From Haloterrigena sp. KLK7 (GTDB lineage: Archaea > Halobacteriota > Halobacteria > Halobacteriales > Natrialbaceae), in assembly GCF_037914945.1 (NCBI RefSeq), contig NZ_CP149787.1, forward strand, positions 3,100,001 through 3,164,000: a DNA stretch of 64,000 nt, in the 5' to 3' direction. Shown here piece after piece: positions 54,164-58,582 of the stretch. The notes under the pieces are model-generated. The model did not search any database. It saw only the letters and a program-made list of their open reading frames with translations, and was not told the DNA's origin. Position numbers and translations under genes: made by a program. The first letter of the stretch is position 1; every line of letters begins with the position of its first letter.

Positions 54164-54802
54164 TTAGTCGTCTTCCGTCTCGGTATCGAGATCGATCGAG
54201 ATCGATTCGGCGTCGGTCTCGTTCGACGATTGCGTGACGACGGTCGAACTGCTGGTGACCGACGAACTGGACGTCGTCGACGACGTCGACTGGGTCGACT
54301 GCGAGACGCTGGTGCTGCCGCTCTCATCCGTTTCGCTCGTCGACGTGACCGTCGACGTCGACGTCTGCGTGCCGTCCTCGGAGACCGACGTCACGGAGAG
54401 CGAGACGTCGTTGTCGGCGTCGACGATCACGTCGACGTCAGTCGCACCGGTGTCGGAATCAGTCGCGTGGATCACGACCCCCCACGGGAACGTCTCGACG
54501 TCCGCGTCGTCCGCAGTCGCCTCGTTCGGATAGTCGTCCGTCGCGTCGGGAACTGTCATCGTCGAGATCGAGACGTCGGACTCGGCTTCGACCGTCACGT
54601 CGACAGCGACGGCACCGGTCTCTGAGTCGTTTTCGTAGGTTACCGTGCCCCACGGGAATTCGGTTTCTGTCATGTTTTCTGAAGTGTTCTCGGTCGAATC
54701 GGTCGCGGGATCGTCGGGCGCAGCGATCGCCGCTGCACCCACGGCGACGACCGCCGCTGCCGCGAGTCCGATCGTCAGCGCCATCGCGGTTCGTCGGTTC
54801 AT
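54164..54802 (-). CDS. Secreted protein with two FPWG repeats and a Ser/Thr tail, unknown
   Basis: 212 residues. Signal-like start MNRRTAMALTIGLAAAAVVA. Two similar units of about 38 residues, starting at 49 (FPWGTVTYENDSETGAVAVD) and 105 (FPWGVVIHATDSDTGATDVD), are 56 residues apart, each a short beta region. Residues 141-212 are almost all S/T/D/E with no structure, a likely glycosylated stalk. It precedes the repeat-protein genes on the same strand but is separated from them by 373 bp. Confidence 0.65.
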   Translation of the reverse strand: MNRRTAMALTIGLAAAAVVAVGAAAIAAPDDPATDSTENTSENMTETEFPWGTVTYENDSETGAVAVDVTVEAESDVSISTMTVPDATDDYPNEATADDADVETFPWGVVIHATDSDTGATDVDVIVDADNDVSLSVTSVSEDGTQTSTSTVTSTSETDESGSTSVSQSTQSTSSTTSSSSVTSSSTVVTQSSNETDAESISIDLDTETEDD

Positions 54803-55175: not shown

Positions 55176-55559
55176 CTAGAAGCTGAAGTCGACTTCGAAT
55201 TCGTTCTCGGCTTCCTGGTCGATTTCGCCTTCGTTCTCGGCTTCGACATCACCAATCTGCGCGTTCTGGTTGGTCTGGTCTAGCGAGTTCGAGGCAGTGG
55301 CGCTACCGCCGTCGTCCGCGTACGCGGCGTTACCGCCCTGCACTCCGACGTTCGACTGCGACACGTACTGTTCCTGCTCGAGCTCCGCTTCCGCATACTG
55401 GTTGAGGTCCGCGTCTTGGTTAATATCCTGTTCGAGCAGGTCACTGGAGTCAGCTCCATCGTCACCGGAGTTGGTGTCGTCAGCTGCAGCCACACCGCCT
55501 GCGAATACGAAGCTACACGCCAGTGCGATCGCCAGCAGCATCGAGATTGCGCGTTTCAT
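55176..55559 (-). CDS. Small secreted Q/N-repeat protein, copy 2 (curli-like unit)
   Basis: 127 residues. A Sec-type signal (MKRAISMLLAIALACSFVFA, cut near residue 26) leads to an acidic linker. Residues 44-54 are a weak motif (QDINQDADLNQ). The main motif pair is QYVSQSNVGVQ (64-74) and NSLDQTNQNAQ (91-101), with the end Gln 27 residues apart, matching the unit in the 504-residue protein at 57068. The tail is acidic with FEVDFSF. It is co-transcribed with copy 1, 6 bases upstream. It is probably extracellular. Confidence 0.75.
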   Translation of the reverse strand: MKRAISMLLAIALACSFVFAGGVAAADDTNSGDDGADSSDLLEQDINQDADLNQYAEAELEQEQYVSQSNVGVQGGNAAYADDGGSATASNSLDQTNQNAQIGDVEAENEGEIDQEAENEFEVDFSF

Positions 55560-55565
55560 TGTTGA

Positions 55566-55955
55566 TTAGTTGTTCCAGCTGAAGTCGACTTCGAATTCGT
55601 TCTCGGCTTCCTGGTCGATTTCGCCTTCGTTCTCGGCTTCAACCTCACCGACCTGCTGGTTCTGGTTGGTCTGGTCTAGCGAGTTCGAGGCAGTGGCGTC
55701 ACCGCCGTCGTCCGCGTACGCGACGTTACCGGCCTGCAGTCCGACGTTCGACTGCGACACGTACTGTTCCTGCTCGAGCTCCGCTTCCGCATACTGGTTG
55801 AGGTCCGCGTCTTGGTTAATATCCTGTTCGAGCAGGTCACTGGAGTCAGCTCCATCGTCACCGGAGTTGGTGTCGTCAGCTGCAGCCACACCGCCTGCGA
55901 ATACGAAGCTACACGCCAGTGCGATCGCCAGCAGCATCGAGATTGCGCGTTTCAT
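55566..55955 (-). CDS. Small secreted Q/N-repeat protein, copy 1 (curli-like unit)
   Basis: 129 residues. The signal peptide and first half (to residue ~73) are identical to copy 2. The motif pair is QYVSQSNVGLQ and NSLDQTNQNQQ with 27-residue spacing. The C-terminus FEVDFSWNN differs from copy 2. It is the first gene of a tandem pair with a 396-bp period. The start ATG is complementary to 55953-55955. Confidence 0.75.
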   Translation of the reverse strand: MKRAISMLLAIALACSFVFAGGVAAADDTNSGDDGADSSDLLEQDINQDADLNQYAEAELEQEQYVSQSNVGLQAGNVAYADDGGDATASNSLDQTNQNQQVGEVEAENEGEIDQEAENEFEVDFSWNN

Positions 55956-57067
55956 GGTTGATCAATGGGCACCCACACACGCATGGACGCTCGAGCACCA
56001 CTTGAGCCACCGAAACGATTCGCGTCGCTCAGCCTGCGAATCCGGCCGTCTCGAGCGTCCAACGCGCCGTGTTGCCCAGTCGGGACAACAGCCGGGTTCC
56101 GTATTAAACCGCCCAACGGTTACGATGTATAGCCGATATTGCGGAAAGTTACAATCGTTAGATCGGGTTGGAAATCTAACTGGAACAGTGCAATATTTAC
56201 GCGGAACGGGATAGAGATTCGCTACTACTGGAATTTCCCGCTGAACTGATCCCGCGCCGTCTTCGAAATAGGTCGTGTAGATCGGCTGTAACTTTCGTCG
56301 CGACGCCGTAATAGTCTCTGGGACGAGAACAGTTCATCGCCGTGAACGAGCGTGCGCTCATCGAGATCGGCGGTCCGACGGCCTCGAGGACCGATCGATC
56401 ACCGCTTCGATGCAGCGTGATGGCGGTATCGTCACGCACACTCCCGATAGCGATCATCTCGCGAGAGGCGCTGATCCGGCGACGGTAACGGGTCAGCCGA
56501 CTTCGAGCGCGGTGGCCCCCGTCTCCGGCGCTGATCGTCGCCGTCCTGTTCTCGGGCCGTCCGGGCGAGCGTCGGACTGCATCGCGTCGGGAGGGGCCTC
56601 GATCGCACCCACAGCAGCCGGCGAGCCGTTCCGATCGCGGCCGTCGCCCGAATCGGAGTCTCCTCGCGATCGATAGCGGCCCGTCACATTCACTGTCACT
56701 TCCTGCGCGCTGGATCTCCTTTCGGTCGTGGAACAGTCATTCGAACAATAATATCGCCAGTAGTCTCGGATTTCGTTGTCGAAAGAGGGTCTCAAAGGGG
56801 CGAATTTCGAACGAATCCCGACTGCAGCGGTATTTCGCGCGTCGATCCGGCGACACCGCCGGACGGCGGCGGTACGTAATCGGCCGTATGAGCCGGTCGT
56901 CAGGCGGTGGTAGAGGGTAGTTTCCCAGAGTAGAGAGCGAGTTCCAGTTAGTAGGCCGACTGATACGTATTCCAACCTGTCGATAACAAAGTCTATCATC
57001 CAGAAAGGACCGTTCGCGTCGAATCGTTCGGCACAAAACAAAATCAAGAGCGAAAATCAGAGTCAAC
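55956..57067. other. Large intergenic region between the repeat-protein genes
   Basis: About 1.1 kb without a gene I can support. Several frames are open on both strands, but none has a family motif, a promoter at a sensible distance, or haloarchaeal codon preference along its length. The last 70 bases before 57068 are A-rich and probably hold that gene's promoter. This is large for such a dense region, so a small RNA or old gene could be hidden. Confidence 0.5.
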
Positions 57068-58582
57068 ATGATAGACGAAAACGAGAGACGATCACGATAT
57101 ACGACAGTATTGATGGCCTGTATCGTTTCCATATCGATGCTGGCCGCCGGCGCGCCCGCCGCGATGGCCGGTGGAACCGACGACGCGGACGCGGACACGG
57201 TCCACGCCCTCGAGGACGGTGAAGACCTCTATCTGGTCTTCGGCGCCGATCTCGACGGGATGAGCCTCGAGGAGTACATCGAGGCGCACGCGTCCGACGA
57301 GCTGGAGATCGACCAAGAGAGCAACACCGAGGTCATCCAGCACCAGAACGTCAGTCAGGTAAACATCAACGAGCAGGGCGAGGCGGTGTCGATCTCGATC
57401 GACGGCGGCGAGGCGACCGCCATTCAGGAGGCCAACCAGATCAACGCCAACGCCCAGACCGGCGACGCCTCGTCCAAGAACGACGCCGTCAGTAGTCAGA
57501 CGACGCAGTTCGAGGACGTCGGGAACGTCACCCTGATCATGGGCAACGGCGACGGCCAGCAGTTCGAGGGCTGGGGCGTCACCGACGAGAGCGGTGAGAA
57601 GGAGACGATCACGCAGTCGGCCGAGGCCAGCGTGACCCAGACGCAGGCCGTCGCCCAGGGGAACTACAACGAACAGAGCACGGCCATCGCCTTCGCTGCC
57701 GAGAACAGCACCGCGACCGCCCTCCAGCAGACCGACCAGTACAACGAGAACCGTCAGGAGGGCGCGGCCAACGCGACGAACGTCTACATCGGAGAGGGCG
57801 AGTACGCCGAGCAGAACGCGAACGCCTGGCTCACGCAGGAGCAGGCCGTCGAACAGCGGAACATCAACGAACAGGGCGCCGCCGTCGCCATCGCCGTCGG
57901 CGAGAACAGCACCGCGACCGCGATTCAGGTCACCGATCAGACCAACCTCAACGAACAGGTCGGCTCCACGAACGCCGCGAACCTGATCGCGTCGATGGGT
58001 GACATGAACATCGCGTCCGCCGGCGACAGCAGCGTCGTCGACACGAAAACGCCCCACGAGGGCAAGAAGGACAAGGGCGACTCGCAGTCCGCGACCACCA
58101 GCGTCGATCAGGAGCAGGCCGTCGAGCAGCTCAACGTCAACCTGCAGAACACGGCGGTGGCCGTCGCGATCAACGACAGCGAGGCCGAGGCCGTCCAGAT
58201 GGCCTCTCAGCAGAACTACAACGCCCAGATCGGCTCCGCCGCTGCGCTCAACGTGTACGCGTCGCCGGGATTCAACTACGACTCGGCATCGCAGACCACG
58301 AGTACGACCGTCACCGTCGGCGGTGACGACGTCGAGAACGCGCCGGGCGTGTCCTACGACTACGACACCAGCGCCAACCAGACGAGCGAGGTCACGCAGG
58401 ACGCGACGGCCGCGCTCGAGCAGACGCAGTTCGTGACCCAGCAGAACGTCAACGAGCAGCACTCGGCGATCGCCGTCGCCGAAGACGACGGAAGCGCCGC
58501 CGCGACGCAGGTGAGCATGCAGGAGAACGAGAACGTCCAGATGGCCGCCGTCGCCGCGACGAACGTCTGGATCGCGCCGTAA
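57068..58582 (+). CDS. Secreted protein with ten Q-x3-Q-x-N-x-N-x-Q motifs, curli-like
   Basis: 504 residues. Sec signal, with cut near residue 34 (PAAMA). The mature part holds five units, each a pair of motifs with the end Gln at 103/130, 203/230, 269/297, 360/387 and 464/491. All ten copies fit Q-x3-Q-x-N-x-N-x-Q, for example QAVEQRNINEQ and QVTDQTNLNEQ. Between the pair lies a run such as AVAIAVGENSTATAI with alternating Ala/Val. The acidic, Ser/Thr-rich linkers between units vary. Alternation of Q/N with hydrophobics is what a stacked beta-arcade or amyloid would need. No named family is recognised. It is probably an extracellular fibre or surface-layer-associated protein. Confidence 0.85.
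   Translation: MIDENERRSRYTTVLMACIVSISMLAAGAPAAMAGGTDDADADTVHALEDGEDLYLVFGADLDGMSLEEYIEAHASDELEIDQESNTEVIQHQNVSQVNINEQGEAVSISIDGGEATAIQEANQINANAQTGDASSKNDAVSSQTTQFEDVGNVTLIMGNGDGQQFEGWGVTDESGEKETITQSAEASVTQTQAVAQGNYNEQSTAIAFAAENSTATALQQTDQYNENRQEGAANATNVYIGEGEYAEQNANAWLTQEQAVEQRNINEQGAAVAIAVGENSTATAIQVTDQTNLNEQVGSTNAANLIASMGDMNIASAGDSSVVDTKTPHEGKKDKGDSQSATTSVDQEQAVEQLNVNLQNTAVAVAINDSEAEAVQMASQQNYNAQIGSAAALNVYASPGFNYDSASQTTSTTVTVGGDDVENAPGVSYDYDTSANQTSEVTQDATAALEQTQFVTQQNVNEQHSAIAVAEDDGSAAATQVSMQENENVQMAAVAATNVWIAP

Follow-up and report, generated by a model that had tools for sequence, protein, structure and literature searches.

Haloarchaeal genes for exported five-unit and single-unit Gln/Asn-ladder proteins look like parts of a curli-like surface fibre

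Do adjacent, divergently transcribed genes for a large and a small repeat protein encode the partners of one archaeal surface assembly, as CsgA and CsgB are in curli? The question is raised by a 64,000-nucleotide stretch of DNA from Haloterrigena sp. KLK7 (contig NZ_CP149787.1, positions 3,100,001 to 3,164,000; the window hereafter), where positions 55,176 to 58,582 encode an exported five-unit protein and, on the opposite strand, two exported single-unit proteins, whose common architecture had led an initial annotation to suggest co-assembly. We find that the two kinds of protein are built from one and the same unit and that their genes are inherited together. In the host and most of its relatives, the gene set looks as though it encodes the components of a surface fibre, so far undescribed, that resembles bacterial curli but arose independently of it. 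Judging from sequence patterns and predicted models, we assign a probability of about one half to the reading that these matched exported proteins build an amyloid-like (cross-β, Gln/Asn-ladder) haloarchaeal surface structure, with the large protein as base or nucleator and the small ones as subunits or caps.

The large protein, P0003 (504 residues; 57068..58582, + strand), starts with a signal peptide of the general secretory (Sec) type and holds ten copies of the motif Q.N...Q. They form five pairs spaced 27, 27, 28, 27 and 27 residues apart, one for each of five units that consist of an A half and a B half, namely unit 1 (residues 83-138; 57314..57481), unit 2 (183-238; 57614..57781), unit 3 (249-305; 57812..57982), unit 4 (340-395; 58085..58252) and unit 5 (444-499; 58397..58564), all on the + strand. 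The small proteins, P0002 (copy 2, 129 residues; 55566..55955, divergent from the large gene) and, downstream of it, P0001 (copy 1, 127 residues; 55176..55559), are both encoded on the - strand. Each has two motifs, QSNVGVQ or QSNVGLQ and then QTNQNAQ or QTNQNQQ, 27 residues apart, and the single unit covers residues 54-109 in either protein (55629..55796 in P0002, 55233..55400 in P0001). Since shuffling of the mature proteins never yields 27-spaced pairs for P0001 and P0003, and does so in only ~1/10,000 shuffles for P0002, the spaced pairs are not due to chance. The motifs and spacing initially reported for the small proteins are thus present, and the same spacing in the large protein holds for four of the five pairs, the third being spaced by 28. 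The replacement of Asn by Gly in the first small motif is likewise real; it is specific to the genus, small proteins of Haladaptatus having Asn.

Alignment of 17, then 48, large proteins defines a unit of ~56 residues with two related halves, A (Q.A.A.V.Q.Q.V.Q.N.N.Q..A.A.A) and B (S.A.A.Q.S.Q.N.N.Q.G.A.A.N). The aligned large homologues have a constant five units, and most preserve the 27/28 spacing from one unit to the next. Every second residue of the unit is an uncharged Q, N, A, S, V or G, and the residues between them vary: over 48 proteins with five units each, Q or N is found near 100% at the ladder positions, and 25-33% of residues at the alternate positions are charged. For the A half (offsets -14 to 6), mean entropy is 0.53 bits with 0.4% charge at even positions and 2.90 bits with 33% charge at odd ones; for the B half, the values are 0.80 bits (ladder) and 3.08 bits (alternate). 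Among 17 divergent large proteins, Q or N accounts for 45 of the 76 invariant columns. As far as sequence can tell, this alternation is the pattern of β-strands with one buried Gln/Asn/Ala face, the faces being assigned from the alternation together with the strands predicted by AlphaFold2. Exported imperfect repeats with a Gln/Asn ladder on one strand face, a general trait of functional amyloids, are thus found here as a sequence pattern.

Alignment of the small-protein profile with the large-protein profile by hhalign gave a probability of 98.6% (E 6e-16) and a score of 81, compared with 12.6 ± 2.6 (maximum 19.9) for 100 column-shuffled controls. Judged by these profiles, the small and large units are homologous, which bears out the common repeat architecture from which the initial annotation had argued. 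Both half-units score above the 99th percentile of shuffles in 43 of 60 distinct small proteins (41 loci); the order of halves is A-B in 27 of these and B-A in 16. Where the order is A-B, the motifs are 23-32 residues apart in compact proteins (mostly 26-28) and otherwise 58-82. Hence, the expectation that homologues keep the spacing of 27 is borne out by the large type and not by the small one, for which we dropped it as a conserved trait; because small homologues do not keep it, the equal spacing in the window is partly a coincidence of loop length. The B-A proteins (at loci L116, L119, L121, L131, L133, L142 and others), encoded upstream of the large gene, are circularly permuted relative to the A-B proteins of the window.

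The large type is present in 99 of 125 genomes of the host's family. A match to the small-type signal peptide was obtained in 87 of these 99 genomes and in 0 of the 26 that lack the large protein (Fisher P 5e-18, a value that ignores kinship). Both types are absent from G023, G015, G040 and G103, each a lone exception within a genus that has them, and the losses are therefore joint. Furthermore, of the 150 small matches listed, 115 have a Sec-type large gene within 8 kb and lie divergently upstream of it, and one more is as close but in another arrangement; the median start-to-start distance among the listed matches is 740 nucleotides, and in the window, P0002 and the large gene start 1112 nucleotides apart. 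This divergent layout is kept across most genera, and the two gene types do co-occur, a point on which the idea of co-assembly could have foundered. Outside Natrialbaceae, where most large proteins are found, the type also occurs in Haladaptatus, Halegenticoccus and Halomicrococcus. Small genes occur in one to five copies, evolve fast and are locally homogenised; in Haladaptatus salinisoli (L174:4908-6864), five of them stand head to tail with no full-length large gene adjacent.

All proteins of the set carry export signals, as judged by eye and with a simple pattern. PGF-CTERM is a mark of archaeosortase-processed, membrane-anchored surface proteins. This signal is present above the curated NCBIfam cut-off at the C-terminus of four tested large homologues of at least 600 residues, and by the same cut-off it is absent from P0003. 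The set also comprises a third secreted protein, Ser/Thr-rich and 212 residues long (54164..54802, - strand), with two segments resembling FPWG.V...D(S/D).TGATDV.V.VDA.DDVSVSV. Its gene lies 373 nucleotides downstream of the small genes of the window on the same strand, keeps this place and strand in 15 of 15 genomes checked, and still follows small genes located away from the large gene, e.g. ~27-34 kb off. As the third gene tracks the small genes, the set has three parts; the protein was detected in 19 of 125 genomes only (E ≤ 1e-6).

The small genes P0001 and P0002 are tandem copies, 6 nucleotides apart and 96.6% identical in nucleotide sequence, and being so nearly identical, they do not count as two independent observations. 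Small genes of relatives, which form similar pairs of their own, are ~81-85% identical to this pair, compared with the 96.6% within the genome; the tandem genes at 55176-55955 appear to be the product of recent duplication or gene conversion. The host genome measures 4.64 Mb, and its nearest named relative found is Haloterrigena salina, whose large protein is 83% identical. It encodes a second five-unit protein on contig G000:C2 (L013:5619-7151, - strand) of 510 residues, with the same pair spacing as P0003 (27, 27, 28, 27 and 27), a Lys-rich tail and a signal for the twin-arginine translocation (Tat) pathway (KRRGYLKG). Tat-exported paralogues occur in other genera too. The paralogue adjoins genes for a symporter-like and a polysaccharide-deacetylase-like protein, and no small gene was found beside it. 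A further contig of the genome (G000:C5, 8.2 kb, with an 864-residue open reading frame) encodes a single small exported protein whose halves stand in the order B-A (L188:3750-4277, + strand). In several genera, another small acidic exported protein is encoded convergently just downstream of the large gene (L081:6894-7274, L083:4458-4874, L086:4504-4851, L087:6997-7392 and L099:4435-4791), often beside a gene for a lipoprotein-like protein of ~200 residues.

Outside its units, P0003 carries LYLVFGADL..LEEYIEAH, an N-terminal segment that is conserved, and FEDVGNVTLIMGNGDGQQFEGW, which is similar to it. The two similar non-repeat segments at residues 52-75 and 151-170 (LYLVFGADL... and VTLIMGNGDGQQFEGW) contain invariant F, G and W; they have no Pfam match and low AlphaFold2 confidence, and possibly represent a small conserved domain. 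No window protein matches Pfam or NCBIfam over cut-off, and public annotation labels these genes only 'hypothetical protein' or 'PGF-CTERM sorting domain-containing protein'. Phage records gave no match, leaving a phage origin unsupported, and a promoter scan with bacterial models gave nothing, as expected for an archaeal host.

How might these proteins work together? In the AlphaFold2 model of the large protein there are ten strands, each 22-33 residues long; mean predicted local distance difference test (pLDDT) values are mostly 73-95 in the repeat blocks and below 50 in the disordered linkers; the five units of a single chain fold at high confidence without partners. We propose that each unit would form two long β-strands, A and B, whose inward faces present Q, N and small residues as an invariable ladder. 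The five units of the large protein may stack into a ten-strand core, and the small protein, contributing one unit of two strands, could pair edge to edge through the same ladder. The role of base or nucleator most likely falls to the large protein, because it is usually present as one Sec-type copy per genome, evolves slowly and is PGF-CTERM-anchored in some relatives. The small, duplicated and fast-evolving proteins would then join its ladder edges, either as subunits or to cap it; the third protein may be an accessory. Export would proceed by Sec alone, or by Tat for the paralogue, which suffices because there is no outer membrane; secretion across such a membrane by the products of Csg genes (CsgG/E/F) is not to be expected in archaea. 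Fibre formation, co-assembly and the identity of the nucleating subunit are what we infer, and as an alternative the roles may be reversed, with the small protein as minor nucleator and the large one as main fibre.

Several observations count against such an assembly. The model of the small protein has two strands of 29 residues and is of low confidence (pLDDT 59; predicted template modelling score 0.21). Foldseek searches of the PDB returned, at E ≤ 10, FapC (twice) and CsgA only, none of them significant: with E from 0.037 to 5.3 and template modelling (TM) scores of ~0.05, a fold match is not established, the top match being the Greek-key solenoid of FapC (9nqd; E 0.037, probability 0.03, TM 0.05). 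For the β-solenoid of CsgA, neither the Foldseek match (E 0.73) nor the VIA-align comparison with 8c50 (Z 3.3, root-mean-square deviation 2.3, 96 residues) establishes a common fold. Compared with curli, the predicted strands have three to four times the length, linkers of tens of residues part most units, and a Tat signal on the paralogue points to a protein that leaves the cell already folded, as curli subunits do not. As such, the resemblance of the modelled fold to FapC and CsgA is a hint and not a test of membership. Foldseek found nothing significant among viral structures; a profile of 17 large proteins found no FapC among PDB chain sequences at E ≤ 10, and its match to PhoQ (E 0.04) was rejected as due to chance.

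The main rival, possible though improbable in our judgement, is a folded, non-fibrillar surface protein: an adhesin or coat protein with long β-sheets, present as a monomer or limited oligomer in an envelope or sheath, which the small proteins would cap or decorate and which forms no open-ended fibre. The confident fold of one unaccompanied chain, the anchoring signal of the homologues, the Tat export of the paralogue and the fixed number of five units, unlike in CsgA, all agree with it, and an archaeal precedent exists in the non-fibrillar giant β-structure of the Methanospirillum sheath, going by part of its description (PMC10593813). Yet small genes in several copies, and Q/N/A ladders without charged residues, are closer to polymerising functional amyloids than to caps, and no lattice-protein family was matched in Pfam or NCBIfam.

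Unlikely, in our view, is that the small proteins regulate assembly of the large one as chaperone, inhibitor or length terminator, binding the ladder edges and staying outside the structure. A single copy of the same unit, strict co-occurrence, divergent linkage and the Asp/Glu-rich composition of the small proteins would suit such a role, but they are exported and have expanded to four or five copies, which suggests structural use.

That the proteins are true curli, i.e. a divergent archaeal branch of the CsgA/CsgB family, is very improbable. Gln/Asn-rich imperfect repeats in a subunit pair point that way, as does a 2012 survey that mentions a single unnamed archaeal protein whose curli-like repeats stand at regular intervals (PMC3521004). 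However, the curlin family PF07012 has no Pfam match in the window proteins at E ≤ 10 and none over cut-off in 145 haloarchaeal genomes, E. coli as control being detected, and CsgA and CsgB score within the range of shuffled sequences against the family profiles (hhalign, hmmsearch). Of the curlin motifs QxGxxN, N-x-Psi-x-Psi-x-Q and Qx10Q, the small proteins have none; in the large proteins they are at most marginally enriched (P about 0.03-0.05), with no excess of Qx10Q, whereas enrichment in CsgA/CsgB is strong. The unit, moreover, measures ~56 and not ~23 residues. On Pfam model, motif counts and profile comparison we rejected membership of curli by sequence, and the comparison with CsgA and CsgB that the initial annotation drew holds as an analogy only. 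Finally, an artefact of composition, by which acidic, Q/N-rich low-complexity proteins would merely seem to have a specific common unit, is refuted by the column-shuffle and sequence-shuffle controls and by positional invariance over 48 proteins, even though false matches do occur, such as the acidic low-complexity protein at G000:C1:2134419, which we rejected as a relative.

Congo red and thioflavin T both stain the matrix of Haloferax volcanii biofilms, and the 2014 study reporting this named a candidate amyloid homologue only, the genes not being demonstrated (PMC4180959); the literature we found demonstrates no amyloid gene in any haloarchaeon. The present locus offers a concrete conserved gene set that is open to deletion and purification, of which we found no published description in the literature searched, chiefly outside subscription journals. 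If fibres form, subunit pairs with Gln/Asn ladders evolved independently in archaea and could be a source of salt-stable, very wide cross-β materials. More tentatively, the set may represent a third multi-component functional amyloid beside curli and Fap, independently evolved and haloarchaeal, with a five-unit base and single-unit partners, in which ladder strands of ~27 residues (~9 nm if straight) would be several times wider than a curli rung and both compact A-B and permuted B-A small subunits would join the stack.

Set beside known systems, the proteins share with curli exported imperfect repeats, inward Gln/Asn and small residues, two half-motifs per repeat and a subunit pair with a common repeat. 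They differ in lacking any sequence relation, in hosts that have no outer membrane, in a unit of ~56 residues with 13-14 inward positions per strand, where the curlin repeat has 23 ± 5 residues and four inward residues per half-motif (PMC10192328), and, with respect to CsgA, in that the number of units does not vary from five among the large homologues aligned. What recalls FapC and FapB is the low, fixed number of repeats with linkers between them, together with Asn/Gln ladders and a subunit pair, yet FapC in the PDB is not matched in sequence and has three repeats rather than five. The amyloid-like sheath (SH) of Methanospirillum also consists of archaeal exported proteins that form giant β-sheets round the cell; compared by description only, it is built differently, and no Q/N ladder is described in the part of the source drawn on here (PMC10593813). 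The matrix of Haloferax volcanii is also haloarchaeal and stains for amyloid, whereas the family described here belongs mostly to Natrialbaceae.
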